From positions 1 to 53,839 of the forward strand of contig JAGQOH010000016.1 in assembly GCA_020427635.1 (NCBI GenBank): a stretch of DNA of 53,839 bases. The letters are read 5' to 3'. Of the stretch, positions 6,714 through 23,117 are shown piece after piece (the first letter of the stretch is position 1; each line of letters starts with the position of its first letter). Both the position numbers and the translations under genes were made by a program. The notes below the pieces were generated by a model. That model searched no databases and was not told where the DNA came from. It worked only from the letters and a program-made list of their open reading frames with translations. Source of the stretch: Phycisphaerales bacterium (GTDB taxonomy: Bacteria > Planctomycetota > Phycisphaerae > Phycisphaerales > UBA1924).

Positions 6714-8951
6714 TCATTCGATCCACACCGGCTGCACGCGTGGCGAGCCGTCATCGACCTGGGCCTCGGCAAGCTCGCGGGCAGAAAGATGTCGCAGCCC
6801 CGCGAAACTCGCGTCGCGGAGAATCGTACCCCGCAGGAAGACGTAGAACCGCGCTTCGGATTGTGTTTCGCTCGTTGACCCAAACAAAGCCCCGATCAAT
6901 GGCAACGAGCCGAGCACGGGCACTTGCGTGCGGCCATCGCCTGTATTCACCGATCGCAGGCCGCCGATCGCGACAGTGAAGCTGTCCGGGATGGTCACCT
7001 TGCCCTGGAGGGTGTTCTCCTGGCTAGGCGGGGGAATGACGCCGCCGCCTTGCAGCGTCTGGGAATCCCCAGTGAACGCGCTGAGTTCCAGGCTGTACTC
7101 GAGTGTGAGATGATCACCCGCAGCAATCTGCGGTGTGATCGTGATCGTGGTCCCGGCGTCCTCGTTGCCCGCGAAGCTCGTGGTGGCCACCGTGTCAGAG
7201 GCGTTAATCGCGGTGAAGGGTTCACGGTTGACCGAGCGCAGGGTGGAAGGTTGGTTGTTGTCGGCGAGCAGGCGTGGCATGCTGACTGCGCGTCCGGCGT
7301 TCGTCGATTCAACTGCGCGAACGAGCGCTTCGAAGTCGCCGGCTTGCATCACGTTGCCGGTGAACCCCGTGCCGGCACTTGTGCCGCCAGTGCCACTGCC
7401 CAAGCCGAACAGTGATGCAAGGTTGGTCACGGTGCGACCATTGCGCCACATGCCATCGAGTTCGACGCCAAGGTCGAGCGTTCGGCCCTCATTAATCGAT
7501 ACAAGTGTGATCTCAAGCATTACTTGGGGCTGGCGGCGGTCGAGATCCTCGATGAGAGGCTCAAGTTGACGAATTGCAAAAGCGTTTCCAACGGCGAGCA
7601 GTGAGTTCGTTGCGGAATCGACCGTGAGTGAGAGGGGCTTGTCCGGGTTGGGCGTCGACGGCGGAGTCGGCGCGCGTCCAGCTCCTTGGCCGGCTTGGTC
7701 CTCGAGCTCTTGCGCGCTTGCGTCGAAGACCTCGAAATCCATAAGTTGGCTCAGGGTCGCGGCGAGTTCGGCTGCATCCCGGTTTCGTATCGCGAATGTA
7801 CGGAGCTCTTGTCGCGCATCAGCCGGTGCAGCTGCAATGGATTCCACAATCGCTTCGATTTTCAAATGTTGCGACCCGGTCGCGCGCACGACAACCGAGC
7901 CTGTGAGTTGCTGCGTGGCGACACGAGTCCGCTGATCTGCTGTGCCGGTGCTGTTTGTTGAGGCAAGTTCGAGTACTTGAGAAATGGCCTCTGCCAACTC
8001 GCGAGGCGCTACTCCCCGTGGGGGCGCATACGTTCGTACTTCAAGCTCCTCAGCTTGGTCGATCGAACGGGCAAGCTCTGTGATCTCTTCGACCTGTGCG
8101 CGGCGAGCGACGACCCACAACATGTTCCCGGTCGGCATTGCAACGAACCGAGGCAGGTCATCCGGCTTTCGTAGTGCTCCTCCTGTGCCGCTGGCCGCAA
8201 TCGTGCCGAGGATCGAGGCCGCTTGGTTGGCCTGGATGTTGTCAAGTTCGAGGAAGAATCCCTCGGCTGTGTCGTCAGCCCGATCTACCAGAGGAAGCAA
8301 GTCCTTGATCATCTGCAGGCGGCGCGATGTATCTGTGAGTAGCAACAGACTGCCATCGCCGATCGCCCGAGCTTGGCCGACGTTGGCGCTCAGGATCGGC
8401 TTGATCGCGGCGATGACTGACTCCGCTTCGCCAGATTGGAGCGGAAAAACGACTGAACCAAAGCTCGCGTGCGAATCGAGTCCGGCGGCCATGTCTGCCG
8501 CAGGCTGTTCGATTCGGCTGAGCGCTTTGGTAGCACTTTGTAACGGAACAATCTCATATAAACTGTCGACTGCGCTTTCGACGACGACAAAGTCTCGGCT
8601 GTCAAGCACGCTTGTCGTGATTGACCAGAGTTCATCCGGCGTGACTGGCCCATCGAGTCGAAACGTGACTTGGCCGCGAAGTTGCTGGGCGTCATAGTTC
8701 AGCGAGAGGTTGGCTTCTCGGGCTGCAAGCTCGACAAGATCGGGAAGCGAAACCTGTGGCGGAAGCCTCACTGTCGCAATATTGCTCACTTGCGCAATAG
8801 ACAGGGATGATGCAAAAAGCAAGCCGACTACGACCGCACCGCACCCGAAATCGATCCGGCGATGTTGTTCAAGCGCTCCACAGATGTCCGTGATGATTCG
8901 CACAATGGGGGTCTCCATACCGCACAGGGTGGTATCAAGTAGCCCTCTCAT
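6714..8951 (-). CDS. gspD: GspD-type secretin
   Basis: 745 residues. ATG at 8951 overlaps the lipoprotein stop (ATGA); the signal peptide core (FGCGAVVVGLLFASSLSIAQ) then sits about 35 residues in, so an internal start at 8918 is also plausible. It contains an N0-like domain (SLPDLVELAAREANLSLNYD), several N-domains with the secretin ring-building pattern, a Gly/Pro-rich linker, and the C-terminal secretin barrel with TITITPQIAAGDHLTLEYSL, IPDSFTVAIGGL and the signature VPVLGSLPLIGALFGSTS. It forms the outer-membrane exit pore. Being coupled directly behind an RHS-core gene and a lipoprotein gene is unusual for a secretin. Confidence 0.93.
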   Translation of the reverse strand: MRGLLDTTLCGMETPIVRIITDICGALEQHRRIDFGCGAVVVGLLFASSLSIAQVSNIATVRLPPQVSLPDLVELAAREANLSLNYDAQQLRGQVTFRLDGPVTPDELWSITTSVLDSRDFVVVESAVDSLYEIVPLQSATKALSRIEQPAADMAAGLDSHASFGSVVFPLQSGEAESVIAAIKPILSANVGQARAIGDGSLLLLTDTSRRLQMIKDLLPLVDRADDTAEGFFLELDNIQANQAASILGTIAASGTGGALRKPDDLPRFVAMPTGNMLWVVARRAQVEEITELARSIDQAEELEVRTYAPPRGVAPRELAEAISQVLELASTNSTGTADQRTRVATQQLTGSVVVRATGSQHLKIEAIVESIAAAPADARQELRTFAIRNRDAAELAATLSQLMDFEVFDASAQELEDQAGQGAGRAPTPPSTPNPDKPLSLTVDSATNSLLAVGNAFAIRQLEPLIEDLDRRQPQVMLEITLVSINEGRTLDLGVELDGMWRNGRTVTNLASLFGLGSGTGGTSAGTGFTGNVMQAGDFEALVRAVESTNAGRAVSMPRLLADNNQPSTLRSVNREPFTAINASDTVATTSFAGNEDAGTTITITPQIAAGDHLTLEYSLELSAFTGDSQTLQGGGVIPPPSQENTLQGKVTIPDSFTVAIGGLRSVNTGDGRTQVPVLGSLPLIGALFGSTSETQSEARFYVFLRGTILRDASFAGLRHLSARELAEAQVDDGSPRVQPVWIE

Positions 8952-10030
8952 CTTGACAGCTCTGGGAGCGAAGGTATCTCGATGACCAATCGCAAGCCCA
9001 CATGATCATCACTTTCAATGGTGCGCAACTGAAGGGGCGCAAGGGCAGCCAACTCGCTACACATTTGCTCCATTCGCATGTCCAGTGTTCCAACATCTCC
9101 GCCGAGACAGATATAGCCCGTACCGTCGATGCCGCTCGCGACTTTGAGCGCGTCTATGCGATTGCCCTTCGAATAGTCGATGAGCTCGGCCATCTTCATG
9201 ATGCCTGCGCGCCGAAGTGCTGTGCGTTCCTCAGGTGTTGGGTCACAGACTTCAGCGACGTTGCCATAGAGGTTGATAAGACCCCAAGGGTTTGGAACTC
9301 CTTCACCGACCAGGTGGATTGGGCGAGGATCAAAGGTGCTTCGCGCCCTCCCCGAAATATCTGGGGGTCGGTCTTCCCACGAGTTACCCCACCAGTCCGC
9401 TTGATCTGTCCCTGCACGGCATGCCCATATCCACTCTGCCAAAGTCGGTGGTCGGATGACGAGTCCGCTGCCAACCGAAGTCAGATAGCACACCTGCGGG
9501 ATCTCTTCCATTCGCGTGATCAGAAATGGTCGTGCAGGACTTGTGATGTACGTGCGTGGGCTCTCGTTCAACGGCCAGGAACTTGCTGACCTTCTCTCCA
9601 GACCGTCCGCCCAATCCGAGAGCACATCCAGGTAACGCATGTTCTCTGCCATTGATGTAGCAGTGACTGAGACGGGCGAACCTGCGACGATGGCGAAGTA
9701 GCTCAGGGGGAACTCTGTAGTTGCGATGTAGTAAGGACGCCTCGGCGCGGGGAGTTCGTGTTCTCCAATGCGTAGGGGTTTCTTGGGTGGGAGCACAAGC
9801 ACGAATTCAAGCGAGGGCGGTTCTGTCTTGACCTCTTCAGGCCACCAGAACGATTGCGGCGTGAGTGTGATATGCGTGGGAAGATCCCAGTCACCGAACG
9901 CAATGGACTCATCCGCAAGCTGTGCTTGCTCCAAATAGTGCCCGAGCAGGCCGGGAGAGTGATCACATGGCTGCTGCGTGGGCGCGCAGCAGCCAGCGCA
10001 AAGGAGCGCGAGTAACAGACTCGTGATCAT
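8948..10030 (-). CDS. Lipoprotein with FGE/SUMF1-like (sulfatase-modifying) domain
   Basis: 360 residues from ATG at 10030, which overlaps the RHS gene stop (ATGA); it also overlaps gspD by 4 bases. The N-terminus MITSLLLALLCAGCC is a lipoprotein signal with the lipobox CAGC. The middle and C-terminal parts carry hallmarks of the formylglycine-generating-enzyme-like fold: PTLAEWIWACRAGTDQADWW, then NPWGLINLYGNVAEVCD (the family GLYDMxGNVWEW position) and the final GLRLVIE strand (family GFRLV). The catalytic Cys pair of true FGE is not evident, so a binding or structural role is more likely. Such domains are widespread in planctomycetes. Its place between a secreted RHS protein and the secretin suggests a role in holding, delivering or protecting against that protein; this is inference. 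Confidence 0.72.
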   Translation of the reverse strand: MITSLLLALLCAGCCAPTQQPCDHSPGLLGHYLEQAQLADESIAFGDWDLPTHITLTPQSFWWPEEVKTEPPSLEFVLVLPPKKPLRIGEHELPAPRRPYYIATTEFPLSYFAIVAGSPVSVTATSMAENMRYLDVLSDWADGLERRSASSWPLNESPRTYITSPARPFLITRMEEIPQVCYLTSVGSGLVIRPPTLAEWIWACRAGTDQADWWGNSWEDRPPDISGRARSTFDPRPIHLVGEGVPNPWGLINLYGNVAEVCDPTPEERTALRRAGIMKMAELIDYSKGNRIDALKVASGIDGTGYICLGGDVGTLDMRMEQMCSELAALAPLQLRTIESDDHVGLRLVIEIPSLPELSR

Positions 10031-10917
10031 TCGCAGCACTGACCGGTATCCTCAAGGCTGACGCTGTACGTTTCGATCACACCAACCGATGCTCCGACAC
10101 CAATACCGACTTCTCCTGCCAAACTGATCAGTCCTCTTACATCCTTGAGGCCACATTCGATCAGCGATCCAAAGTTGAGTGAGAATTTGACTGGAAGGGC
10201 GGTCTTGGCATTGAATGTTCCAAACGCTCGAATCTCACCTCCGGGAAGAACGTGGATTCCCCCCTGAACTTTCAGCTTTAGTGGTACGCCTGCTTCCACC
10301 TTGACGCTAGGACCTACAAGGACGCGGTAATGAGAGCCCTCGTCTTCACACTCACTCGACTCTGCCTTCACCCCTGCGCGATACGAGATTCCGAGTTGAG
10401 CACCGAGGCGCAGCGACGTTCCGGTCGCGGTATACTTGTGCTTTTTACCATCTTTGCAGCACTCGCCCTCGTTGAAAATCGCTTCCGCAATGCCATAATC
10501 GACATTGATTCCCTTGGCTACTTCGTCCGCCACATCGACAGCAAAGTTGGCACACTCCACCAGCTTCCAGAGTGGTCGCCTCTTTTGGTATTCCCGCAAT
10601 AATTCTTGGGCGTACTCGTAGTTCCCGGCATCATTTTCTTGCCGAATGCAACTTGGAACTGGATATGGGCACAGCCCCATCGGATCTCGTGTAGTAATCG
10701 GTCGTGAGCGCACGTACTGATACAGTGCTGTCCCGTCTTTCCAAAGGATCATCGGGAGTTGCTCAAGTGAGCCCTGACTCGGCAGCGTGGCATCCAATGG
10801 ATCTCTCGTAATCCACCGCCCTGTCTTCGCGTCATACCAGCGTGCGTTGGCCTCCGGCGCAAAGCACAGCGACGTGCAGAGAGCAAGCAATAGCGTGACG
10901 ATTGAGCGAGCGTTCAT
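10027..10917 (-). CDS. Short secreted RHS-core protein with beta-rich C-terminal domain
   Basis: 296 residues from ATG at 10917 (GAAGGAG about 7 bases upstream). A Sec signal peptide ends at about PEANA and is followed at once by RWYDAKTGRWITRDPL, then LYQYVRSRPITTRDPMGL. That is the terminal segment of an RHS-repeat-associated core, without any of the preceding YD repeats. A Cys-containing linker (CKDGKKHK) leads into a Gly-rich domain of alternating hydrophobic strands (VKVEAGVPLKLKVQGGI, ISLAGEVGIGVGASVGV) that I cannot name; it could be a beta-barrel or beta-sandwich. In full-length RHS proteins this position holds the variable toxin or tip domain. The gene is coupled to the lipoprotein and T2SS genes downstream, suggesting it is a T2SS substrate. 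Compare the sister gene at 21513-22385. Confidence 0.75.
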   Translation of the reverse strand: MNARSIVTLLLALCTSLCFAPEANARWYDAKTGRWITRDPLDATLPSQGSLEQLPMILWKDGTALYQYVRSRPITTRDPMGLCPYPVPSCIRQENDAGNYEYAQELLREYQKRRPLWKLVECANFAVDVADEVAKGINVDYGIAEAIFNEGECCKDGKKHKYTATGTSLRLGAQLGISYRAGVKAESSECEDEGSHYRVLVGPSVKVEAGVPLKLKVQGGIHVLPGGEIRAFGTFNAKTALPVKFSLNFGSLIECGLKDVRGLISLAGEVGIGVGASVGVIETYSVSLEDTGQCCE

Positions 10918-10947
10918 GATTGCGATACTCCTTCGCGCGAGCACGGG

Positions 10948-12042
10948 CTATTCGTTATTCCTGCTCCGTTGGTTCAGCCGTTGCATTTCCTGTCGGACCT
11001 GGTTCGGAGGCATTTGTTCCAATCGCGTGGAGGCCCTGGCTGGGGGCAGGAGCCTTGCCGCCATCACCCGGCGTTCCTCCAGCGTAAACGCAAGTTCCGC
11101 CCGCCGACCCATCGCCATGACAAGAAACTGAAAAATGTCGCGGCTCTCCGGGAAGCACGAGCGTGCCAGGAGCAGATCCTCCTCCGCCCGTTCCCAGTCT
11201 TTGTGGGCCCACCAATAGCCTGCCCGGTGCTGGAGGAAAACGCCGAGCAGTTGGCGATTCGAGAGCGACGCGAGGTCGGCGCCGTATGCCTTGCCGAGTT
11301 CGTGCAGCCCCAGGTCTCGGGCGTAGTCCTCATCGGAAACCGATACGAACGATCCTGTTGAGCCATCAGACTCCGCGCTTGTTGCCTCCAGATTGAAGCG
11401 AGTCATGCCATCATCCCAGCGGCACCACATGTGGTCGTTGCCTACCACCCCCTTTAGGGGCCAGCCGAGCCGATGGGCGATCGCCAAGTACAGCACTGGC
11501 ATAGTTGCGCAGGTTCCTTCTTTGGAATCGATGAGCCCCCACGCGAACAGCTGCTCAGGTCTGCCGTTGTCGACATCGGCATCAGTGTAAGTAATCCCAA
11601 TACTGGGCCCGGCAAGCGCAACTGCCATGCTGCCCGTGCGCCAGAGGTCAGGATTTTCAACGTAGAGGGGGGACTCAGCTGCCTGGAGCTCCGCCGCGCC
11701 AAGCGCGGCCCGTAGCCTCTCGCCCCATTCATCAACAACCCGAACATACTCCTCAATGGTGCGTTTCTGGCCAGGCAATCCACTTCCCACGATGAGGTTC
11801 AACAGCAGCGGGTCGAACCTGTCAAGCTCACCATCAGTCATTGCAACAAGATCAAGCGCATCAAGAACTTGAGGTTCCTGCAGTGTTGAAGGTAAGTCCG
11901 CACTTGCATCAATGAGCCGGGCGTTTGTTTGGGATGGGCGCTGAGGTTGCGACGGTGTCAGCATGACGAGGCCTACGACAACTGTGCACATCACACAGAT
12001 TTGTGTGATAGAGCGAAGCTTTCCACAGATGTGAGGTTTCAT
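10948..12042 (-). CDS. Exported transglutaminase-like protein
   Basis: About 364 residues from ATG at 12042 (AGGA about 10 bases upstream). An N-terminal hydrophobic segment (ITQICVMCTVVVGLVMLTP) acts as a signal peptide or anchor. The region LVAMTDGELDRFDPLLLNLIVGSG resembles the helical start of SirB1/transglutaminase-like proteins. The core follows: SKEGTCATMPVLYLAIAHRL (catalytic Cys), then GNDHMWCRWDD (catalytic His), then FNLEATS, where families normally have the third acidic residue (FDPT-like); here Asn/Glu stands in its place. The C-terminus is TPR-like (HKDWERAEEDLLLARSCFPE). It starts the minus-strand run 31 bases before the short RHS gene, so it may process or crosslink the exported RHS proteins. 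Activity is uncertain. Confidence 0.65.
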   Translation of the reverse strand: MKPHICGKLRSITQICVMCTVVVGLVMLTPSQPQRPSQTNARLIDASADLPSTLQEPQVLDALDLVAMTDGELDRFDPLLLNLIVGSGLPGQKRTIEEYVRVVDEWGERLRAALGAAELQAAESPLYVENPDLWRTGSMAVALAGPSIGITYTDADVDNGRPEQLFAWGLIDSKEGTCATMPVLYLAIAHRLGWPLKGVVGNDHMWCRWDDGMTRFNLEATSAESDGSTGSFVSVSDEDYARDLGLHELGKAYGADLASLSNRQLLGVFLQHRAGYWWAHKDWERAEEDLLLARSCFPESRDIFQFLVMAMGRRAELAFTLEERRVMAARLLPPARASTRLEQMPPNQVRQEMQRLNQRSRNNE

Positions 12043-12312
12043 AATGCGAACATCCTGCGAACGGCAACCTACAGACGCGGCGCGCCTTGCGTCGTCAGGT
12101 GCAAACATACGAACGTCTAGCACAAACGAAAAGAAAAAAGTCGATCGAAAATGTGGAACTCACTCTTGATCACGGCGCCAACATTTGTAGAAACTCGATT
12201 CGATTCAGCGGCGGTCGCGCGAGGACCGTTACTGGTGGGATGACGAATGACGGGCGGAGCGCTCTCGATGGTGCTTGTTCTGTCATTGACATTCGTCGGA
12301 CGGAGGTCACAA
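12043..12312. promoter_or_regulatory. Divergent intergenic region between the T2SS-side and RHS-side gene runs
   Basis: About 270 bases separate the minus-strand run (starting 12042) from the plus-strand run (starting 12313), so promoters for both must lie here or close by. It is more A-rich than its surroundings around 12120-12160 (AAACGAAAAGAAAAAAG). I see no clear -35/-10 pair, operator palindrome or small gene. Shared divergent control of both runs is an inference from layout only. Confidence 0.4.
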
Positions 12313-13437
12313 ATGCATGCTGTGAGTGGACTGAGCCTGAGCGGGACGCTTCTTGCTGCGGTATTGGTTGGCGCTGCCCAGAAGGAACAACAAAGCGACC
12401 GCGTGACTAATGATCAGCACGCGACGGTCGCGAGCGGTGCATCAACGAGCAACCGTGGTTTGGCGGATGCGGCTCCAGGCAGCGATTCTTCCGCGGCCCA
12501 AGAACCAATCACCAACCCAACGTATGGCGAACCGAAGCTCGATCCGTCTGGTCGCCTCAAAGTCGACCATGGCAGTGTGTTCTTTGGCCCAGCGCCGAAG
12601 GGGACGCACCATTACGCCACGTTTGAATTGACGAATATCTCCTCTGATGAACTCCGAATTGTGCAGACCAAGACGAGCTGTGGATGTACGAAAGCGGTCA
12701 TCAGCAAGCAGGGCCTGCTGCCCGGCGAATCAGCAGATCTCGCAGTTGAATTCGAGATTCGAGGCACGCATGCCAAGGTTGTTCGTCAGACTGCCGCGCT
12801 GTTCCTTGAAGGCGAGCGAACTCCCCTTGAGCTGGAGTTCTCGGGACAGTGCTTGGATCCCCTGAGGATAAGGACCGATCAGCAGACCGAAGTTGCATCA
12901 TCCTACTCCGCTATTGTCGAATCAGTTGGTGGACAACCGTTTCAGATATTGGACGTGCGCCCTCCGGTTCTTGAGTTTTCCGGCGTGGCCAGTCGCAATC
13001 ACCGAATCAGCCTGAATGCAGTCGCTTGGCGTGAGCACGGACACCCTGCGAGCGCAGAGATAAAGACCACTCTCGATGGGCACTGGCATTCGGTCGCGAT
13101 TCAGGGTCGCTTGTTTACTCCAACCCAGGAGGAGCCACGTATCAACGTCGAGCCCAGCCTGTTGGATCTTGGATGGGCGCGCCGAGGCGAGCTCCTCGTC
13201 GAATACATCACGATTAGGGGGGTCAGAATCGAGTCCTTGGATGATCTCACAGTTACCACCGGGACACACAACGTTGCTGTGACAATCGGTGATGTACAGA
13301 TCGTCGGTGAGGATTCTGTTGTTCTTCTCCAACTTGTCGTAAAAACGCGAGCAATCGGTCCGGTGCGAATTGCTCTTCGGGTCTTGCACCGAGACCGCGT
13401 CGCGCTGGTTCCGCTTCTTGTTGATGTCGAAGAATAA
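12313..13437 (+). CDS. Exported DUF1573 (Ig-like) protein
   Basis: 374 residues from ATG at 12313, chosen because GGAGGT lies about 6 bases upstream. A signal peptide (LSGTLLAAVLVGAAQ) is followed by a Ser/Ala-rich spacer and a DUF1573 domain at about residues 70-165: HGSVFFGPAPKGTHHYATFE, LTNISSDELRIVQTKTSCGC (the conserved SCGC motif) and LLPGESADLAVEFEIRGT. Two further Ig-like repeats follow. DUF1573 proteins are periplasmic or surface Ig-fold proteins common in planctomycetes and Bacteroidetes and have no defined activity. It starts the plus-strand run and lies 44 bases before the giant RHS gene, so it may assist folding or surface display of that protein (inference). Confidence 0.8.
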   Translation: MHAVSGLSLSGTLLAAVLVGAAQKEQQSDRVTNDQHATVASGASTSNRGLADAAPGSDSSAAQEPITNPTYGEPKLDPSGRLKVDHGSVFFGPAPKGTHHYATFELTNISSDELRIVQTKTSCGCTKAVISKQGLLPGESADLAVEFEIRGTHAKVVRQTAALFLEGERTPLELEFSGQCLDPLRIRTDQQTEVASSYSAIVESVGGQPFQILDVRPPVLEFSGVASRNHRISLNAVAWREHGHPASAEIKTTLDGHWHSVAIQGRLFTPTQEEPRINVEPSLLDLGWARRGELLVEYITIRGVRIESLDDLTVTTGTHNVAVTIGDVQIVGEDSVVLLQLVVKTRAIGPVRIALRVLHRDRVALVPLLVDVEE

Positions 13438-13481
13438 CACCAAGAATGCACAATCGCTTTGCATTGTAACGAGGCAGTTCC

Positions 13482-16400
13482 ATGAGAAAGCATGTTCTAT
13501 GTTTCGCTGCGGTTGGTGTCGTGACTGCGACCCCCTTAAGGGTGCTCTACTCTCAAAGTATCTGCAACAGTCTGAGCTATATGTGTGTTGAGGATCGAGA
13601 TTCGACCTGCACAGACCTCTTCCCGAGCTGCGCAGATGACCTGGAGGCACAACTCGGTGATCCGTGCGATTTTTCAAGTGGAGTTGGGCCGTGCTGTCCG
13701 GGCATCCCCGATGTTCTTTATTGCTGCTTTCCTTGTGACGACTGTGAATACGGACCAACACTGGGTGAATTTCTAGCGCTGCTTGAGGATCCGGATCAAA
13801 ACGCGAAGTTTGCTTGCCTAGAAGCGGCTGGCGTGTGTCAGACGGGCTGCTTTGGATACGCACCCGGCGCCTGCGATCCCCAATCAAGTGGTGAGGATGA
13901 AGGACTGTGCTGCCTAAAGAACACAATCGAGCGGCTCTGCCGTAGTTACGAGGCGTGCGGCAACTGCCAGGGTGGCACTGCAACACCACCGCCCAGTAGC
14001 CTGATCGCTCAGGCCATATGTAGCAGCGGATGTGCCCCCACTGGTGGTGACTTCTGCGTGGATGGTATCGCACAGCTTGTAGCGGATTCCTCATGCGGTG
14101 TGGAGCTAAGTGATGCTGACCGTGCTGCGATAGCTGCATGCCTGGGGGCGAACAACGATTGCGAAGAAGTCGAGGAGGGCGACGAAGAGGGGAACACCGA
14201 GGAATCTGACAATCCGCAGCAAGACGGAGGCTGCGGCGGCGGGGACGATGGCGGCGATGACGGGCCGAATCCGACGGAAGAAGCGGAGAAGCCCGCATCC
14301 GACGTTGTGCCGGATAATCCTGTTGACTTGGGCTGGGGTGTTAAGTACGAGTCTGCGACTGACATGGTCGTGCGTTTGCCGGGACGCGATTTTGTGTTCT
14401 CGCGCGCCTACAACTCGCGACCGCGCAACATCAACGGAGGTTTTCTTGACTGGGAGTCTCTGAGTACGGTTGGCCGGGGCTGGAATGCGCCTGCAATCCC
14501 CAGGATTCGGAGGCTCCAAAGTTCCGGGGACAAGATCATCGTCTACGGCACGAAGACGCACTCGACGTTTGTCTATCGTGGCGGCAAGAACGTTACTGGT
14601 GCCATTGATCTGGACGACGACGATGAGTCCAGTCGAACCGACTCAAAACGACCCCTGTGGACACCGAACGGTCCATCTCATGAGTATATCGTTGCCACGA
14701 CGATGACCCTCGAAGTCGACATGGACGACAACGGTTCATCCGAAACAGTTACTGTCCCCGTGCTTCGACTCGTGCAGCCGGGCGAGATGCAACAAGATTT
14801 CTACCGGCAGTCCCAGCCGCCGGGCATCCCGTGGACCAACGACGTGGATGGCTCGGCATGGGGTAACGACTGGAGAGACTACTTGTATCGTGTGCGCGAT
14901 CAGGTCGCTCGCCAAACGGACACCTACGGGAATCAGTGGGATTACTTCCATACCGCCTACAACTCGGTGTCTGGCATCTATGTGTCACGGATCGCGCGGC
15001 CAACGAAGATTACCTTCAAGCGGCCAAATGGCACGATTGTGGGCTGGCTCTTCTTTGGTTGGGATTTCCGTGCCAAGACAGACGAAGGTTGGGTGTTCGG
15101 GCTTCGTGGCAAGTTGCGTAGGTTAACGATGGTGCGACCCGGCGTTCCGGATCCCGGCTATGACGGCGATTGGTCGGAGATGAAAAACATCATCGAATAT
15201 CACGAGAAGTTTGATGATTTGGATGAATGGAACTTGGGGAGCAATACGATCACACAACGTGTCGTGTACGACTACCACGAGGGTGGGAACGAAAACGACC
15301 ACGTTAAGGATCAAGGCGATCTCGCCGACTTGTTGGAAGTCAAACAACTCACTCGGCTCGACGACGACGGGTGGCGGACTCGCTTCTGGCAGTACCGGTA
15401 CTACCGTTGGGACACCGGAGGCGGTTGCCCGGGAGCGAGCGGTGCCAACCAGAATTGCGGCAGCGTTGAGGAACCTGACGAGGACTGGGACCACGATGGC
15501 GTCTATGGAGAGAAGGGCTCGCGCCACTTCCTGAAGATGGCGTTCTATCCACGCCAGATTGAATATGTCTATGAGCGGGCGAACCCTGCGCACCACACGT
15601 TCAACAGTGTCGATGATGTTGCTGACAAGTTTAGGGGCCAGCCAGATGAGTTCCCGGTGCATTTGCTTGATGAGCAAGGTAACGATCACACCTATACCCT
15701 CGCGCAGCTTGCGAACAAAGTGATTTCCTACGATCTCGTGGAAGGAGGAGGGGCGCAGTTCTCAGAGTCTCGTTGGCTCGTGTCGCGCCAACTCATCAAT
15801 GCAGATTGCGGCTGCGGAGGACCAAGTGGGTCGCACCGTATCTTGCGCACGTACAACTACGATTGCGGTGGCGACTGCGATCGCTACGCAGACATTGATG
15901 TGGCGCGTGTCACCGAGTGGAAGCCGGGTCAGACCATAAATACATGGGAGCCCTACCGGACCCGAGTCATGCACTACGGTCCGTTTGGCGATCTCGAAGG
16001 CCGCTGGCTGCTCGGCGAGGTGCTGCGAGAAGAAGCCAGTGGTGGAAGGGTGTGGGTACATTCGTACCAGTATCACGACCCCCCAGCGGACGCGAATGGC
16101 GATTATCCGAAGTATCGAGGCCGCCTCGCGACTGTGATCAACCCTTCGGCCGTGACGTCGTATAACGCCGGAACGGGTGTTGTACAAGTTGGGTCGGGAC
16201 TCATCTACGGATTCACATACAACGACGATGGCTATCTTGCCGGACGCTCGATCAATTCCGACCTCGTCGAGAGCTATTCATATCGCACAGGCCCTTCCGA
16301 GGAGCACCTGCTGTCATCTGTGACGCGGCACGCCAGCGCGACCGTTGGCGAAACCACCACGTTTGACTATGGTTTTGGAAGTATTCCCGGCGTGGAATGT

Positions 16401-19400
16401 GGTCCGACCCTTCGTGCGGTGCAGCGCAGCGTAGAGCGCGAGCTGCCCTCGGAGAATGGACTTGCTGAATCAGGCACGACGTTCGACGACTACGCGCTGT
16501 TCGATTCGGATGGCGAGCCTCGCTGGTCCATTTCCGGCGACCTCTCTCTCACCGAGCGCGACTATGATGTCATGACGAGCGCGGTTATTGCAGAGCGGCG
16601 GAACGTCGGCTCATCGAGTGCGCCAAGCGACTTCAACGACGCGTTGAACACTCTGACGAATCCGCCGAGCACGAGCTTCCGCACCGATGGTGGCGCCCTC
16701 GAGATGAGCTACGAAGTGAACCTGCTCGGTCAGGTGACGAAGTCCACCGGCCCTGGTGGCGTCACAACAGAGATGCACCGTCACATGGCTCCAACTCTGG
16801 CGCGCAACGAAAGTGATGATGGCATGGGGAACCAAGTTGTGCCCACGAAGTTGCTCTATGCCGTAGGTGTCCTGCCTCCCAAGGATGCGTCCGGCAATTC
16901 ACTGGGAGCGGCTGTTCAGACGTGGTACGACGCGAGCGATGCAGCAGTGGAGCGTGCCGAGTATGAAGTGCCGCAGAACTTCACCGATTGGGCGAGCGCG
17001 AGCCTGCTCACACCTGCTGGGCTTTGGAGCAATGACCACGATCTGGCTGGCAATGTCATTCGAACTCGGCAGTGGCACGATGTTGCCCAACGCTCGAGCC
17101 TTAGCGGTGCCTATGTGACCACGCGCTCTTATGACCCCTTCGGGCGCCTCGAGCTGATCACGAACCCTGTCGGAACGGTCTTGACGTACACCTATAATGG
17201 CCGCGATGACGAGATCTCCCAGTCTGTTGGAACGACAATTGCTCCCATGAAGGTTACCGAAGGGTACGCGTACGACGAACATCGGGCTGTCGTGACCGAG
17301 TCCGGATCGAGTTGGTGGGGAAGCGACGAATACGACCCCCAAACCACGAGTGCCCTCGGTCAGCATTTCGGTGCGTCTCCACCGACAGGTAGGATCCTGG
17401 GGGGCGAGAGCCTTCCTACGACGGTTTCGTTGTTTGAGACGGATACGACAGCGCGCACGCTTCATCTGAGCTACGACGATCGGAACCGCCAGCTAGGAAC
17501 AGTGCTCAAGGATGCTGCTGATGTGATTGTGAATCCGTCGACGTTCGTTCAGTACGACAATCTCGGCCGCGCTATTGAGCGAATCGAGTACATCGAAAAC
17601 CGAGCCGAGACATCCTGGAACGTGCTTCCCAGCGGCAGTGACATGACGCGCCGGGAATTCACATTCTTCAGCCAGCGCGGGCTACCGTATCGATCCGAAT
17701 TGGCGATCGACCCCACTTCACCCGCGGACCGGCTCAGCCTGAATCGCTGGTTCGACGAGGTAGGGCGTCCAATCAAGGTGCTCGCGCCAGATTCACCCGT
17801 CACGAAGGTGCAGTACGACGGCCTTGGTAGGACATCGGTGCGATATGTGACCGACGGGCGAAATGACGAGGCACCCGGCATCGGGACAACGACCTACAGC
17901 ACGCCAAGTCATCTGGTTGATGTATCTGATGACACCGTCTATGAGCAAGTTGAATTGTCCTACAAACCCGACATGATCGGGAGCGACGCGATTGCCGAGG
18001 GCCAGCTCGAGTGGATTACGACCCGGCAGCGCGCGCATGATGAATCCCCTTCCAGCTCTGGATCATTGTCGGGTCTTACGAATGCCATCGCCTCGTTTGT
18101 GTTCAGACAGTACGATGCTGCGAACCGACTCATACTCACTGCGAACGCAGGTACCAATTCCACTAATGAACTGTTCGAGGCAGGTGGCTCTGCGCCCGCC
18201 TGGACACAGGCCACGACATCTTTTGGTAATGCGCTTCTCACACCGCGAGAGTACGACGCGAAGGGAAGGGTGAGCTTTGAGTATGAACCAGACGATGCGT
18301 CGGCCAAGGAATTCGCGATGGCCTATTTCTACGACGATCTTGATCGCGTGATTGGCATCGCCGAAGCCTTTGAGAAGAGTTCTGGCGCTACACTGGCCTT
18401 CGATGATACGAATCAGCGGTGGAAGTTCGGCACGGCGCCGTCGAGCTTTGTTGGGAAGAACCGGTTTACGACCTTTGTGTACGACGGACTTGGCAACGTG
18501 ACCAAGCGCGTTGCCCATTTGGACGCAACTGCGGTTCAAGAAACGGCGTACGACTACGGACTGACGACGTCAGACGGCCTCGCGAGGAATGACTGGTTGG
18601 CGCGTGTTCGCTATCCGCTGGAGTCTGGGCCCAACGCCGGCGAAGCGGCGAGTGACACCCTGCCGGAGTACAATGTTGTTTACGACTACAATCGGCTTGG
18701 CGAAGTAGTCGCGTCTGTCGATCAGAACCAGACGAGACATGAGTACGAGCGTGATGGCGCCGGGCGAGTGGGGACAGATACAGCCACCGACCTTAGTGGC
18801 GGGTTGTCGGGCGTCAATTTCGATCTCGTCGACAACATCCGGTATCTGTACAACCCTGATGGCACCATCGATGCCGTGCAATCCAAGAAGGGCGGCACCG
18901 TCGTCAATGAACTTGAGTTTGACTACAACTCACTCGATCAGCTCACAGACATGTGGCAGAATCCAGGCGGCTCCGTTGACCGTAGCCAGAATGGATTGGC
19001 ACGCGCGGATGTATCTGGCACCACTACTTTCTATCCAACTGGTGTGGCGCACTATGGCTATGAACTCAATGCATCGTCGAATCGGGCCCGTCTATCGACA
19101 TTGGTCTATCCGTACCAGTTTGACGACAATGGAACAACGACAGATACGGCTGTGAATCTGATCTACGACCAAATCAGTCGGCTCGCAGGAATGGGATGGG
19201 AGGTGGACCAAAGCGCGACGTCGAGTCAAACGGGACATGATGTGACCTATGGCTACGTTGGCCTGTCGACCATCGTCGAAGCCAAGTATGCCTATCCAGA
19301 CCTGCTGCTCAGCCGTTGGCGTGATTCGGCATACTCCGCGACGGATGTGCCGGAAGGCCAACCCGGGGCGTATGCGGGTCTTGATCAATTCGGACGGGTG

Positions 19401-20762
19401 ACGAATCAGTTCTGGGCTCCTGCGGGCAACAACTGGCAAAGTCATGTCTCACCCGGGATTGTTGACTTTGACTACGGCTACGATGTGAACTCCAACATCA
19501 CCGAACGGATTGATGGTCGATCTCCGGCGATGGGGACCTTCTATGACGGTGACCGCGATGAACGATACGAATACGCAGATGAGTTGGATCGCCTTACAAA
19601 GGTAGAGCGCGGGCACGAGCCCGCGTGGACTGAGTATGAATCGTGGGCGGGCCCCAACCCAACCGACGGCCTCGACATCCTTGGCAATTGGCAGACCTTC
19701 AGCTTCCTTGACGAGAACGACCAGCTCCAAACAGAGTCTCGGACGCACAACGCTGCGAACGAAATCCTGACCCAAGGATCGCTCTCGTTCGTTTATGACG
19801 CGGCTGGAAACCTGATTACCCAAGATCTGGATGCGAGTACGCGAAGAACTTTTGAGTATGACGCGTGGAATCGCCTCGTTCGCGTCGGTTCGCAGACCTT
19901 GAATGGATCGGTTTGGGAGGATGACCCGGACCTCATTCGAAACGGGTACTACGGCCTGAATCAGCGTGCTTTCACCGAAATGGACGGTGGGCTTGCTGGA
20001 TATGGTTCAGGTGGTGCTTCCGGCGAGCTCGATCGGCGAGAGCATTTCTACTACGACGCGTCATGGCGCCTTCTTGAACGACGGGCTGACAACTCGTACA
20101 AGCCCGACGATCCAACGGACCCGGATACGCCGTTAGATTTCGGGGCGGATTCTGGCGAGACGTTAGCGACCTGCCAGTTCATTTGGGGCGCACGCTACAT
20201 TGACGAGTTGGTCTACTACCAGGAAGACCTCGGTGGTGATGGCTACTTTGGCTTCGGATTCGATCCCACATCGTATGTTCTGACGGATCGCAATTTCAGT
20301 GTCGTCAGAGTCGACGAGAATGGTGAACGTATCCGCTATGACGCGTACGGAGAATCACGGACGTACAGAAACGGCGATGCCAACAACGATGGCACCATTG
20401 GAATCGACGAACTAAACCCACTGCTTTTTGGATTCGGTAGCACAATAGGGCAGTCCGGATACTCACCTGATCTTGACGTGGCGGGTCGTCCCAATGGTGT
20501 ACTCGATATTCAAGATCTGAACTTCATCCTCTTTAGTTTTGGATCCTATGAGACGGGTCCTCTAAGCAGTGAGGGCAACATCATCGGCTACGCTGGGTAT
20601 GTTCACGAGCCGACTACGGATCTTTATCTCGTGCGCAACAAGCGCTACGTGCCGGTGGAGGGCTGGCTGAGTGTGCCTGATCCGTTTGCCGAACAGACCA
20701 ACACGCCTAGACCTCGCAAGCGACTCAAGCCAACCGATTCATCAGAGGGAGGTGACGAATGA
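13482..20762 (+). CDS. Giant secreted RHS/YD-repeat protein with Cys-rich head and internal dockerin-like segment
   Basis: 2426 residues; GAGG precedes the ATG. Order: signal peptide; a head with about 26 Cys (residues about 28-226, many in CC or CxxC pairs); an acidic Gly/Asp linker to about 281; an RHS N-cap of the DUF6531 kind (NPVDLGWGVKYESATDMVVR, LPGRDFVFSRAYNSRP); about 1900 residues of YD repeats (for example YDPFGRLELITNPVGT, YDAAGNLITQD); a dockerin-like pair of Asp/Asn-rich EF-type loops at about 2297-2357 (GDANNDGTIGIDELN, LDIQDLNFILFSFGS); and an RHS core (GYAGYVHEPTTDLYLVRNK). The chain ends about 30 residues after VPDPF with no toxin domain. YD repeats normally form a hollow beta-cocoon. 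The stop overlaps the next gene (ATGA). Confidence 0.93.
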   Translation: MRKHVLCFAAVGVVTATPLRVLYSQSICNSLSYMCVEDRDSTCTDLFPSCADDLEAQLGDPCDFSSGVGPCCPGIPDVLYCCFPCDDCEYGPTLGEFLALLEDPDQNAKFACLEAAGVCQTGCFGYAPGACDPQSSGEDEGLCCLKNTIERLCRSYEACGNCQGGTATPPPSSLIAQAICSSGCAPTGGDFCVDGIAQLVADSSCGVELSDADRAAIAACLGANNDCEEVEEGDEEGNTEESDNPQQDGGCGGGDDGGDDGPNPTEEAEKPASDVVPDNPVDLGWGVKYESATDMVVRLPGRDFVFSRAYNSRPRNINGGFLDWESLSTVGRGWNAPAIPRIRRLQSSGDKIIVYGTKTHSTFVYRGGKNVTGAIDLDDDDESSRTDSKRPLWTPNGPSHEYIVATTMTLEVDMDDNGSSETVTVPVLRLVQPGEMQQDFYRQSQPPGIPWTNDVDGSAWGNDWRDYLYRVRDQVARQTDTYGNQWDYFHTAYNSVSGIYVSRIARPTKITFKRPNGTIVGWLFFGWDFRAKTDEGWVFGLRGKLRRLTMVRPGVPDPGYDGDWSEMKNIIEYHEKFDDLDEWNLGSNTITQRVVYDYHEGGNENDHVKDQGDLADLLEVKQLTRLDDDGWRTRFWQYRYYRWDTGGGCPGASGANQNCGSVEEPDEDWDHDGVYGEKGSRHFLKMAFYPRQIEYVYERANPAHHTFNSVDDVADKFRGQPDEFPVHLLDEQGNDHTYTLAQLANKVISYDLVEGGGAQFSESRWLVSRQLINADCGCGGPSGSHRILRTYNYDCGGDCDRYADIDVARVTEWKPGQTINTWEPYRTRVMHYGPFGDLEGRWLLGEVLREEASGGRVWVHSYQYHDPPADANGDYPKYRGRLATVINPSAVTSYNAGTGVVQVGSGLIYGFTYNDDGYLAGRSINSDLVESYSYRTGPSEEHLLSSVTRHASATVGETTTFDYGFGSIPGVECGPTLRAVQRSVERELPSENGLAESGTTFDDYALFDSDGEPRWSISGDLSLTERDYDVMTSAVIAERRNVGSSSAPSDFNDALNTLTNPPSTSFRTDGGALEMSYEVNLLGQVTKSTGPGGVTTEMHRHMAPTLARNESDDGMGNQVVPTKLLYAVGVLPPKDASGNSLGAAVQTWYDASDAAVERAEYEVPQNFTDWASASLLTPAGLWSNDHDLAGNVIRTRQWHDVAQRSSLSGAYVTTRSYDPFGRLELITNPVGTVLTYTYNGRDDEISQSVGTTIAPMKVTEGYAYDEHRAVVTESGSSWWGSDEYDPQTTSALGQHFGASPPTGRILGGESLPTTVSLFETDTTARTLHLSYDDRNRQLGTVLKDAADVIVNPSTFVQYDNLGRAIERIEYIENRAETSWNVLPSGSDMTRREFTFFSQRGLPYRSELAIDPTSPADRLSLNRWFDEVGRPIKVLAPDSPVTKVQYDGLGRTSVRYVTDGRNDEAPGIGTTTYSTPSHLVDVSDDTVYEQVELSYKPDMIGSDAIAEGQLEWITTRQRAHDESPSSSGSLSGLTNAIASFVFRQYDAANRLILTANAGTNSTNELFEAGGSAPAWTQATTSFGNALLTPREYDAKGRVSFEYEPDDASAKEFAMAYFYDDLDRVIGIAEAFEKSSGATLAFDDTNQRWKFGTAPSSFVGKNRFTTFVYDGLGNVTKRVAHLDATAVQETAYDYGLTTSDGLARNDWLARVRYPLESGPNAGEAASDTLPEYNVVYDYNRLGEVVASVDQNQTRHEYERDGAGRVGTDTATDLSGGLSGVNFDLVDNIRYLYNPDGTIDAVQSKKGGTVVNELEFDYNSLDQLTDMWQNPGGSVDRSQNGLARADVSGTTTFYPTGVAHYGYELNASSNRARLSTLVYPYQFDDNGTTTDTAVNLIYDQISRLAGMGWEVDQSATSSQTGHDVTYGYVGLSTIVEAKYAYPDLLLSRWRDSAYSATDVPEGQPGAYAGLDQFGRVTNQFWAPAGNNWQSHVSPGIVDFDYGYDVNSNITERIDGRSPAMGTFYDGDRDERYEYADELDRLTKVERGHEPAWTEYESWAGPNPTDGLDILGNWQTFSFLDENDQLQTESRTHNAANEILTQGSLSFVYDAAGNLITQDLDASTRRTFEYDAWNRLVRVGSQTLNGSVWEDDPDLIRNGYYGLNQRAFTEMDGGLAGYGSGGASGELDRREHFYYDASWRLLERRADNSYKPDDPTDPDTPLDFGADSGETLATCQFIWGARYIDELVYYQEDLGGDGYFGFGFDPTSYVLTDRNFSVVRVDENGERIRYDAYGESRTYRNGDANNDGTIGIDELNPLLFGFGSTIGQSGYSPDLDVAGRPNGVLDIQDLNFILFSFGSYETGPLSSEGNIIGYAGYVHEPTTDLYLVRNKRYVPVEGWLSVPDPFAEQTNTPRPRKRLKPTDSSEGGDE

Positions 20763-21451
20763 TCCGGCATCTGAGTTTCGCCATTCTTGCAAGCGCGGTG
20801 TGTTGCACAACGGCGATTGGCCAATCAGCGCTTAGAAAGGACGCCGCCCTCGCCCTCACGAAGATCGGCGCAGGTCCTCAGGAGTTCGCAGCATCCGGTG
20901 TAAGCGCGTCTGCCTACTCGAGCGTGCTGACTTACCTCCAGTCACTTCCGGCCGATCTTGGCGACTACGAGCAGGCACGCATTGCCGCCATCCAAGCCAA
21001 TGCGTCGGTGACCGCCGCTCGCCAAGCGCTAGCGGTCGATCGCGACAATCTATCTCTTCATGATGCGTTGGACGCAGCGGCTCAGCAGGCGGATGCTGCA
21101 AAGGCAGCGGCGGAGGCTGAGGCGAATGTCCTTCGCCAAGCAGTGATCGGTCAAGTCGCTCAATTGAGCGGGTCCACCTCGGCGCAGGCGCTCACCCAGG
21201 TGCTGGCCAATCGTACCCGCCCAGTTCCCGCGCAGTACAAAGTGCTTGACCTTTCGGATGATGACTGGGCGTTATTGGGGGCCTGGCTCAAGATCGAGAA
21301 CAACGCTCAGGTCCAGCCATCGGCTGAGGAGCAGCGTGTTGCTGGTATCGTCAGTTCTTCATCGGCCGTTGCCCTTGCGCGCACCAACCTGACGACGCAC
21401 CTGCCAGGTATTCTGGTGGAATTTCAGGCTTCAATGCAGCCGCCGCAGTGA
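20759..21451 (+). CDS. Secreted Ala-rich helical protein, coupled to the giant RHS gene
   Basis: 230 residues. ATG overlaps the RHS stop (ATGA), and GGGAGGT lies 7 bases upstream, so it is translated right after the RHS protein. Signal peptide MIRHLSFAILASAVCCTTAIG. The mature part is nearly all helix: QARIAAIQANASVTAARQAL and ALDAAAQQADAAKAAAEAEA suggest a coiled coil, followed by VLDLSDDDWALLGAWLKIEN. I do not recognise a family. Coupling suggests one-to-one dosage with the RHS protein, as a chaperone, anchor or partner, but no motif proves it. Confidence 0.72.
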   Translation: MIRHLSFAILASAVCCTTAIGQSALRKDAALALTKIGAGPQEFAASGVSASAYSSVLTYLQSLPADLGDYEQARIAAIQANASVTAARQALAVDRDNLSLHDALDAAAQQADAAKAAAEAEANVLRQAVIGQVAQLSGSTSAQALTQVLANRTRPVPAQYKVLDLSDDDWALLGAWLKIENNAQVQPSAEEQRVAGIVSSSSAVALARTNLTTHLPGILVEFQASMQPPQ

Positions 21452-21512
21452 TCCGAAGCAGACCAAACTCCCGAACCGAACTCCTTGGGTAGAATCACAA
21501 GAAGGGCGCGTC

Positions 21513-22385
21513 ATGACAACCACTATGCTGAAGTCAGTCGTGCTGAGCCTGTTCGCAGTGCTGTTCTTTGCGGCACCCGTCGCTGAAGCGCGCTGGTACG
21601 ACGCCAAGACCGGGAGGTGGATAACGCGGGATCCGCTGGCGCAAGAACGAGTTTTGCAAAGAGCAGCGTATCCTGATGGATCCAGCCGCTATCAGTACGT
21701 CCGCTCTAATCCAGTTCGCTTCGTTGACTTTGGCGGGCTTCAAGCACAAGAGCCGGAAGATGGTAAGGCCGCAGAGAAATCGGATGCACAGGTAAAGTGT
21801 GAGGAGTGGGCAGCACGGGAGGCAAAAAGAGATCAAACTTGGATCAGTGAACTTGACGACTGCCCATGTCAACTGGACATGACGGATCCGAGCAAGCCGA
21901 AAGTCCCATGCGATGCCGAAGGCGAGTGGAACAAACCAGAAGATACTGATGGCAGATGGCATCCCTATCACCCAAATGCGACCTGGCAAGTTCGGGGTAA
22001 AGCGAAGGAGAACAAGTCCGGGCAACAGTGTACGTACGACCAAAACGGAAAGCTGATCACAGACGGCCCAAGTGCGGGAACACCAGATCTTCATTCGCCT
22101 CATTACACTAAGGCCGGGGCCGTCAAGAATGCGGCAAAGGAATCTGCTAGGAGAGGCGTGCTTTGGGTACTTCGGAAGCGCACAGGGATCAAACTTCCGT
22201 ATGGTCCGTCTGGGAATTTCGTTGACCCTTCTGTGGGCTTACATCAGGATTATGACGTTCACCCATTTGTTGCCTGTCGTGACGCAGGAATGCTGGATGT
22301 GTATTTTACATACCGTCCGCCAAGCAAAGGGAAAAATCCTGACGGGACACCCTGTGCGAAGAACACAGTGGATCCCGGCTATTAG
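21513..22385 (+). CDS. Second short secreted RHS-core protein with candidate effector domain
   Basis: 290 residues; AAGGG lies 8 bases before the ATG. The signal peptide ends at VAEA and is followed by RWYDAKTGRWITRDPL, identical in these residues to the protein at 10027-10917, then SRYQYVRSNPVRFVDFGGL: the end of an RHS core with no YD repeats before it. A charged linker leads to a separate domain (about residues 135-280) with QCTYDQNGKLITDGPSAGTP, HSPHYTKAGAVKNAAKESAR and LHQDYDVHPFVACR. The conserved-looking Asp/His clusters resemble enzyme-like domains found behind RHS cores, but I cannot name the family. A WG-repeat membrane protein starts 3 bases after the stop, a layout seen in effector-immunity pairs. 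Confidence 0.78.
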   Translation: MTTTMLKSVVLSLFAVLFFAAPVAEARWYDAKTGRWITRDPLAQERVLQRAAYPDGSSRYQYVRSNPVRFVDFGGLQAQEPEDGKAAEKSDAQVKCEEWAAREAKRDQTWISELDDCPCQLDMTDPSKPKVPCDAEGEWNKPEDTDGRWHPYHPNATWQVRGKAKENKSGQQCTYDQNGKLITDGPSAGTPDLHSPHYTKAGAVKNAAKESARRGVLWVLRKRTGIKLPYGPSGNFVDPSVGLHQDYDVHPFVACRDAGMLDVYFTYRPPSKGKNPDGTPCAKNTVDPGY

Positions 22386-22388
22386 AAA

Positions 22389-23117
22389 ATGGTGTATGTC
22401 AAGATCAAGTCCAGGCGCGTTTGGCGAACACCGTTGATTTGGGTGATTATTGGACTTGCCTGCTTGTGCGCCATTCCATTGCTCTTCGGCCTGAGGATTT
22501 GCATCGCGAATAGTAAGACCATCGCTCAATGGGATCAATGGACAAGCCATCTTTCGGGGCCACCGAGTTCCTGGCAGTCACCCTCTAACGGATTCAGACC
22601 CTTCACGAGCGACATTGTTGCTGTGTCGCAAGAAGGACTCACCTACCATTTGCTAGGGTACAAGGACGAACGAGGGCAGGTTGTGATTCCGCCTCGCTTT
22701 AGTGCGTGCGGTGAACGGTTTTACGAAGATCTTGCGTGGGCTTCAGATCCTGAACAGCGGAAGTCTGGTTACATCAACCCAGATGGATCGTGGACCATTG
22801 TTGTTCCAGGATCTACGCACTCCGACTTCGTCGGCGGCATGGGCGAGTTCCAGGTCATTGGACCCGACGGCTTTCCACTCTTCGGGTTTGTGAATCGCAA
22901 AGGTGAAGTTATCGTTCCGCCTAGGTATCGAAGCGCAGCATGGTATGTCGATGGATATGTCCTCGTCGGCGAGCGCACTTGGGTGGGCAGAGTACTAGAC
23001 AAGATCAGTCTGGAGTTCGGTGTTTCCATTTCCACTTGTATGGATATCAGAAAAGTTCTGCTTGATCACGCGGGCCGAAAAGTGAGTGAATTGGACTGGC
23101 ACCGGCGCAGCCCTTGA
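22389..23117 (+). CDS. Membrane-anchored WG-repeat protein (candidate protector of the RHS effector)
   Basis: 242 residues starting 3 bases after the previous stop. A basic N-terminus precedes one TM (WVIIGLACLCAIPLLFGLRI, residues about 18-37), so the rest should face the periplasm. WG/KWG-type repeats follow: YKDERGQVVIPPRFSACGER, SGYINPDGSWTIVVPG and FGFVNRKGEVIVPPRYRSAA. WG repeats are short beta units that mediate protein binding and have no known catalysis. The last 40 or so residues (LEFGVSISTCMDIRKVLLDH) have no clear match. Tight linkage to a secreted RHS-tip gene and periplasmic orientation are what an immunity or tethering protein would show; this role is inference. Confidence 0.75.
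   Translation: MVYVKIKSRRVWRTPLIWVIIGLACLCAIPLLFGLRICIANSKTIAQWDQWTSHLSGPPSSWQSPSNGFRPFTSDIVAVSQEGLTYHLLGYKDERGQVVIPPRFSACGERFYEDLAWASDPEQRKSGYINPDGSWTIVVPGSTHSDFVGGMGEFQVIGPDGFPLFGFVNRKGEVIVPPRYRSAAWYVDGYVLVGERTWVGRVLDKISLEFGVSISTCMDIRKVLLDHAGRKVSELDWHRRSP

Follow-up and report, generated by a model that had tools for sequence, protein, structure and literature searches.

On a planctomycete contig of 53,839 nucleotides (JAGQOH010000016.1, assembly GCA_020427635.1, order Phycisphaerales), analyzed over its whole length and called the window here, a type II secretion system (T2SS) operon adjoins the gene of a giant RHS protein. The window is one whole contig (C32) among the 123 of a 3.06-Mb genome that is 92% complete. 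Comparison with other genomes ties this neighborhood to a particular lineage of T2SS. The giants are probably polymorphic toxins exported by the adjoining T2SS, the shell and the tips of the RHS system being split among separate genes in the window. We infer from the sequences that RHS proteins are the cargo of this secretion system.

Giant RHS Genes Adjoin gspD in One T2SS Lineage

The window GspD was searched in 150 genomes (its own and those of 149 relatives) and the RHS profile TIGR03696 in 90 genomes of its family. We retrieved the regions around the gspD genes. The same genomes also contain a separate T2SS lineage, from which 20 gspD genes were taken as controls. Scanning named genomes with an alignment of GspD contributed 80 more loci, mostly from Phycisphaerales, Phycisphaerae, or unplaced planctomycete metagenome-assembled genomes (MAGs), many of them on contigs already sampled. 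A gspD gene was classed as window-type at a phmmer score of at least 280, and an RHS gene was called as a frame of at least 300 amino acids (aa) matched at E < 1e-10 by two profiles built from the giants. Before counting, 22 window-type loci with less than 4.8 kb upstream and rows with an identical GspD end were left out.

With paralogs of one genome counted separately, in data that are mostly MAGs and where paralogs and relatives are not independent, an RHS gene lies upstream at 58 of the 72 nonredundant window-type gspD loci, divergently in 51 and co-directionally in 7 (59 of 73 with the window). None of the 20 controls has an RHS neighbor, one of them having only 3.8 kb upstream. RHS genes also lie upstream of gspD at 7 of the 21 loci scoring 200–280, and not at the single locus scoring below 200. 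Among the linked loci, the RHS frame reaches at least 1,000 aa in 57 of 58 (it is only 499 aa at L181), and the median gap between the open frames is 969 bases. By an arithmetic estimate assuming 1–3 giants per genome of about 3.4 Mb, a giant is expected in a random 24-kb zone in about 1–2% of cases; the difference between linked loci and controls rules out chance adjacency. A preliminary description of the window had proposed the T2SS–RHS link and named as its check whether RHS genes are absent beside the orthologous T2SS in nearly all relatives. They are not, and the linkage is real, but the conserved partner is a giant, mostly divergent RHS gene and not the short RHS gene and lipoprotein gene joined to the gsp operon.

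The giants fall into two classes, A and B. Their RHS label is independently supported by TIGR03696, which marks 14 giants at gspD loci (counted by hand among the matches listed), and the Pfam RHS_repeat model confirms 9 of the 12 class-B giants tested. Genome G060 carries at least five T2SS–RHS modules with similar GspDs, each with its own giant (L048, L070, L084, L118, and L119). On three of these module contigs, the sequence stops within gspD, as would happen if the assembly had broken at near-identical copies.

Other features were noticed around gspD. ArsR-like regulators, recognized by eye, cluster on the upstream side of the gene in 11 loci, including L065, L132, L135, L167, L185, and L189. 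At L116 (3308–15846; G006:C65), a gspD without RHS gene has two large exported-looking frames of 1,104 and 3,092 aa divergent upstream, possibly another type of cargo. Planctomycete-type modules also occur in L193 and L204, from records named Leptolyngbya sp. PLA1 and Candidatus Binatia that are likely mislabeled or misbinned.

The RHS Class Is Exchanged within the GspD Lineage

In a FastTree phylogeny built from 111 GspD sequences, one clade of 19 (support 100) is made up of the controls. Another, of 67 members and likewise with support 100, contains 57 of the 65 RHS-linked rows, 39 of class A and 18 of class B, as well as 10 rows without RHS; of the 25 rows in an outer group, 8 have RHS. The RHS class changes 13 times on this tree. 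Closely related GspDs stand beside both classes in G060, and two close sister GspDs of KLAP126 adjoin a class-A (L151) and a class-B giant (L188). Because the class changes repeatedly on the GspD tree, this T2SS lineage retains an RHS neighbor while the type of RHS is replaced.

The Helical Gene Accompanies Class-A Giants

In the window, the giant is coupled to a gene for an exported helical protein. This family is represented at 43 of the 65 loci with RHS, at 3 of the 28 without it, and at none of the 20 controls; by class, it is found at 43 of 47 class-A loci and at none of the 18 of class B. The gene lies on the gspD strand at most 3 kb before gspD in 31 of these 43 class-A loci, whereas in the window it follows the giant. 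Matches were found in 48 of the 150 genomes. The AlphaFold2 (AF2) model is of high confidence (pLDDT 93, pTM 0.83) and all-helical, and Foldseek returned no match in PDB at E <= 1e-3. At L129 (G003:C11), the gene stands beside a giant RHS gene with no gspD in the 20 kb fetched, which argues for a role as partner of RHS and against one as T2SS component. A part of the T2SS and a known chaperone were both considered and are unsupported, given this locus, the class-B and control counts, and the lack of a PDB match. The protein may be an RHS-specific loader or chaperone.

Organization of the Window Locus

GspD, GspE, GspF, and GspG are encoded in one operon and all exceed their Pfam cut-offs (table 1). 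The gspK-like gene gave no Pfam match and the gspC-like frame no NCBIfam match. On the minus strand, the order of transcription is transglutaminase-like gene, short RHS gene (mini-RHS1), FGE-domain lipoprotein gene, gspD, gspE, gspF, gspG, three pseudopilin-like genes, and finally the K-, C-, and L-like genes, where the contig ends. The plus strand carries the DUF1573 gene, the giant RHS gene, the helical gene, a second short RHS gene (mini-RHS2), and the gene of a WG-repeat membrane protein. Four-base ATGA overlaps join mini-RHS1 to the lipoprotein gene, the latter to gspD, gspD to gspE, and the giant to the helical gene. The preliminary description had seen both runs: the operon from gspD onward, joined by four-base overlaps to a lipoprotein gene and a short RHS-core gene, and a divergent run of giant RHS gene, coupled helical gene, second short RHS-core gene, and membrane WG-repeat gene. 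These observations were confirmed, including the coordinates and overlaps of both runs. To these we add the transglutaminase-like gene heading the mini-RHS1 operon, the DUF1573 gene between the runs, and the FGE-sulfatase-type domain of the lipoprotein.

All three matches to TIGR03696 (Rhs_assc_core) found by a search of the 3.06-Mb genome fall within this locus. The GC content of positions 8948–23953 is 56.4%, against 63.3% and 62.4% on the flanks. At L059, a relative of the window DUF1573 protein is encoded directly before the giant.

Table 1. Features of the T2SS–RHS locus in the window
Feature	Coordinates	Strand	Evidence
gspC-like and gspL-like genes (gspL-like cut by contig end)	3..1360	-	Position and reading by eye only
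gspK-like gene	1218..2084	-	Position and size; phmmer relatives found at the equivalent position in some other operons
Three minor pseudopilin genes (gspH/I/J-like)	2081..3437	-	Pfam N_methyl each (one over cut-off, two below); joined by ATGA overlaps
gspG, major pseudopilin	3434..3913	-	Pfam T2SSG 1e-27
gspF	3946..5163	-	Pfam T2SSF 2e-49
gspE, ATPase	5179..6717	-	Pfam T2SSE 2e-128; ATGA overlap with gspD
gspD, secretin, 745 aa	6714..8951	-	Pfam Secretin 2e-28 and Secretin_N 1e-25 (over cut-off), GspD N0 1e-4 (below cut-off); ATGA overlaps on both sides
Exported lipoprotein containing an FGE-sulfatase-type domain; candidate immunity protein or partner of mini-RHS1	8948..10030	-	Pfam PF03781 5e-7; lipobox by eye
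mini-RHS1: predicted signal peptide, RHS closing segment, C-terminal tip	10027..10917	-	TIGR03696 positions 34-76
Transglutaminase-like protein, Cys and His motifs by eye	10948..12057	-	Pfam Transglut_core2 2.5e-5
DUF1573/HYDIN-like Ig protein	12247..13437	+	Pfam 5e-15; in the divergent gap between the two gene runs
Giant RHS protein, 2426 aa, predicted signal peptide, dockerin-like stretch near end (by eye)	13482..20762	+	RHS_repeat 3e-7, YD_repeat 3e-12
Helical exported protein, partner of class-A giant RHS	20759..21451	+	ATGA overlap with giant; family distribution; AF2 model
mini-RHS2: predicted signal peptide, RHS closing segment, AMOP-type tip	21513..22385	+	TIGR03696 36.1 bits; AMOP 4e-10
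Membrane WG-repeat protein, candidate immunity protein	22389..23117	+	PF14903 6e-15; directly after mini-RHS2

Beyond the RHS locus, the window encodes two possibly exported surface proteins: one of 1,680 aa with LamG, TIG, and BamB-like domains (25395–30437) and one with seven FG-GAP repeats (32755–34143). Near 46 kb, the GC skew changes sign, going from about -0.25 to +0.3, and the sequence before this point has an A-rich strand bias.

Giant RHS Proteins and Their Tips

The window giant stops inside the RHS core. It matches TIGR03696 at model positions 11–55 only (16.2 bits, cut-off 32.5), and its sequence ends in GWLSVPDPF and a charged tail of about 24 residues, where its relatives go on with the closing segment and a tip. 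A complete core followed by a variable tip on one protein is found in many of the relatives' giants and not in that of the window. A Pfam scan at E <= 0.1 found no PAAR domain and no SpvB- or TcdB-type domain on it. Signal peptides and lipoboxes were judged throughout by eye and by simple rules; most of 38 giants have a hydrophobic, signal-peptide-like N-terminus according to inspection and a hydrophobicity scan.

We scanned with Pfam 44 of the 48 listed C-terminal pieces of giants, omitting one each from L068, L079, L114, and L179, whose frames are broken or cut. Four named tips were each found once: a DddA-like deaminase (2e-12), a GH-E nuclease (2e-16), a ribonuclease (7e-14), and Ntox35 (4e-5). 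Further domains are PT-HINT (four pieces), AMOP (one), and Dockerin_1 (four). Orphan tip genes follow the giants of several relatives; they keep part of the upstream core and have no clear signal peptide.

Short RHS Proteins Carry the Closing Segment

The segment that the window giant is without is found directly behind the predicted signal peptide of mini-RHS1 and mini-RHS2. Both match TIGR03696 only at positions 34–76, with 30.7 and 36.1 bits, respectively (cut-off 32.5). The RHS system of the window is therefore split, as the preliminary description held: the giant ends within the core, and two short proteins predicted to be exported bear the closing segment and a C-terminal domain. Translation of mini-RHS1 may start at GTG 10944 or ATG 10917. 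Its whole mature length aligns to the tip of the giant L072, of another family, up to both C-termini (27%, E 7e-17). Mini-RHS2 weakly resembles the tip of the L033 giant (1e-7) and the mini-RHS of L231 (1e-18). A protein search with mini-RHS1 as query returned only itself.

Among twelve mini-RHS proteins from 10 loci (the window and L225–L233), representing four families of the order, 13 residues are invariant, of which 12 lie in the closing segment; the tips of these proteins differ. A database search with their alignment gave 68 matches, and 42 of the 67 from outside the window have a signal peptide and the core according to a crude rule. Where named by their source, these proteins are mostly "hypothetical protein." The families recognized among them are SLT, Tlde1 (two), M35 peptidase (two), Ntox44, and AMOP. 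They lean toward envelope targets and the named tips of the giants toward nucleic acids, in small numbers and with most proteins outside any named family. A general linkage of mini-RHS genes to T2SS genes is unsupported: among 23 loci (L225–L247), many on short contigs, a gsp gene was seen only at L227, in addition to the window. At L227, the mini-RHS unit is preceded by gspE and by C-, L-, and M-like genes, the last three recognized by eye. The mini-RHS of this locus (6083–7776), whose Cys-rich tip looks phospholipase A2-like by eye, abuts an ankyrin-repeat lipoprotein.

Partner Genes of Mini-RHS

The transglutaminase-like gene occurs at 20 places in the 150 genomes and directly precedes a short RHS gene in 18 of them, 15 by profile or in the window and 3 by eye (L235, L244, and L246). 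At L245 (1077–3563), the transglutaminase-like domain, the RHS closing segment, and a long tip are fused in one open frame of 828 aa; at L247, which is frame-broken, no short RHS gene was seen beside it. The separate unit thus comprises a transglutaminase-like gene, a short RHS gene, and often a membrane-anchored or exported protein, and in relatives it usually lies away from T2SS genes. The product of the gene following mini-RHS has a hydrophobic N-terminus in 12 of 16 cases and a lipobox in 5 of 16, by a simple rule that missed some proteins judged lipoprotein-like by eye.

The best match to the window lipoprotein elsewhere in the 150 genomes (6e-15; next 1e-11) is an FGE-like protein encoded directly after the giant L072, at L072:17328–18410 (29%, E 1e-18). 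The arrangement of mini-RHS1 and the FGE-like lipoprotein fits a candidate toxin–immunity pair.

Discussion

In the scheme that we consider probable, the giant RHS protein would first be transported to the periplasm in a Sec-dependent manner and fold there into an RHS shell, possibly aided by the helical protein. The folded giant would then be handed to the T2SS, which takes folded cargo. The mini-RHS proteins may work as effectors on their own or attach to the giant, which has no closing end and no tip, and the FGE-domain lipoprotein and the WG-repeat membrane protein likely protect the producer. A more elaborate version, which we regard as doubtful, supposes a T2SS lineage dedicated to RHS toxins, in which the helical protein serves as RHS-specific loader. 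Shell and tips, exported separately by Sec, would meet in the periplasm through the closing segment, allowing one shell and one T2SS to send interchangeable tips, and the transglutaminase-like partner would join or process them.

Several observations weigh against the export of giant RHS toxins by this T2SS. RHS genes are missing at 14 of the 72 window-type loci and at 14 of the 21 loci scoring 200–280. The class-B assignment is partly circular, since the RHS profiles were built from giants of the loci that they score; Pfam found nothing on the cut or broken giants L042 and L068, which the class-B profile matches, L042 being in the seed of that profile. Among the giants listed (frames of at least 1,900 aa, counted by hand), only 14 of 41 adjoin a window-type gspD, and a T2SS in cis therefore appears dispensable for RHS genes. 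The same-genus genome G001 is without the T2SS type of the window. In addition, the rows of class B show weak clustering on the GspD tree (shuffled mean of 17.0 class changes, with as few as observed in 2 of 500 shuffles), which disfavors a tight fit of machine and cargo; strict co-evolution of the two is unsupported by this distribution. In the window, the RHS segment is lower in GC than the gsp genes. Most of the 44 giant tips scanned belong to no named toxin family and most of the 67 mini-RHS-type database proteins to no named toxin or enzyme family, and the L072 relative of the window lipoprotein has no clear lipobox by eye. Finally, a folded RHS shell may not fit through the secretin pore.

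Three other readings were considered. The linkage may be real without the giant being T2SS cargo, both belonging to a co-regulated surface or predation program and RHS being exported or held at the surface by another route. Giants without a nearby gspD exist, as at L129 and in 27 of the 41 listed (hand count, some near contig ends), the exchange of RHS classes indicates no tight fit to the T2SS, and the ArsR-like regulators upstream of gspD would suit a common program. We nevertheless consider this reading unlikely in view of the RHS neighbor at 58 of 72 loci versus 0 of 20 control T2SSs and of the multimodule genomes, which pair each gspD with one giant. Alternatively, the RHS proteins might be adhesins or recognition proteins, like the eukaryotic teneurins. 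The window giant has no tip, Dockerin_1 occurs in the giant C-terminal pieces, and we know of no toxin role for AMOP and WG domains. The deaminase, nuclease, and ribonuclease tips of related giants and the SLT, Tlde1, and M35 peptidase families among mini-RHS-type proteins make this very unlikely.

The split itself might reflect decay, leaving a truncated remnant of a giant and short genes that are leftover orphan cassettes, as the short charged tail after the core and the orphan cassettes beside several relatives' giants could suggest. We find this quite unlikely: orphan cassettes elsewhere keep upstream core and have no clear signal peptide, whereas in many genomes the signal peptide of mini-RHS proteins directly adjoins the closing segment, and the transglutaminase-like gene is a fixed partner of mini-RHS. 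Furthermore, the reading frame of the giant is open and shares an overlap with the helical gene.

RHS toxins are known mainly as cargo of type VI (T6SS) or type VII secretion systems (T7SS) or as components of Tc-type toxins. In the Tc toxin TcB/TcC, the RHS shell is made of separate proteins that assemble, and shell parts are likewise separate proteins in the window. Conversely, the window giant lacks SpvB/TcdB-type domains by Pfam, the split falls at the closing segment and not mid-shell, and the neighbor is a T2SS.

The remaining comparisons draw on passages of the cited papers. Like the T6SS Rhs toxins, exemplified by Rhs1 of P. laumondii (PMC8636562), the planctomycete proteins combine an RHS/YD shell, a C-terminal plug region, and a variable tip with a linked dedicated secretion machine. 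In the published Rhs structure, the barrel is closed by a C-terminal plug, an aspartyl protease domain linked to autocleavage (PMC8636562). Unlike these toxins, the window giant has no PAAR domain by Pfam, the neighboring machine is a T2SS, and a predicted signal peptide replaces the PAAR/transmembrane N-terminus. Salmonella has orphan rhs genes without the delivery part, and its orphan rhs-CT cassettes are, like the short genes here, shell-less tip genes beside a full-length rhs, there with an immunity gene (PMC7043789). Unlike them, the window short genes have a predicted signal peptide at the closing segment, and mini-RHS1 has a conserved upstream partner gene.

The preliminary description held a T2SS–RHS arrangement to be undescribed. 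Among the literature matches listed (titles and abstract openings, with few subscription papers and no bioRxiv preprints), no T2SS operon linked to RHS genes was found, and a giant protein with an Rhs-like region from the Planctomycetes–Verrucomicrobia–Chlamydiae (PVC) group is described without T2SS in the passages of PMC12057145. "T2SS/Sec" as a route of RHS toxins is, however, already given by Zhang et al. 2012 (PMC3482391), who place RHS toxins under "T2SS/Sec-dependent" in the sense of a default signal-peptide route with no signature gene nearby and write of "dedicated secretory systems (i.e. those other than T2SS)." The planctomycete proteins resemble that class in their signal peptides, RHS repeats, toxin domains, solo cassettes, and N-terminal transglutaminase domains, and differ in the gsp operon adjoining the RHS gene. 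The transglutaminase domains at the N-terminus of polymorphic toxins are described there as inactive (Zhang et al. 2012, PMC3482391); in our loci the transglutaminase-like protein mostly has a gene to itself, L245 being the one case of fusion, and its Cys and His motifs can be discerned in the window and in several relatives.

If the export of giant RHS toxins by this T2SS holds true, a T2SS lineage that keeps an RHS neighbor through exchange of RHS classes would be an added secretion route for polymorphic toxins. To our knowledge, the purpose of planctomycete T2SSs is largely unknown, and our results would suggest a role for some of them. The association of the helical gene with one RHS class offers a concrete starting point for asking how folding or loading of the giant takes place, and the transglutaminase-like/mini-RHS unit provides a second set of toxin candidates. 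Separate tips with their own predicted export signals raise the question of shell–tip assembly in the periplasm and would constitute a new way to arm and launch RHS weapons.

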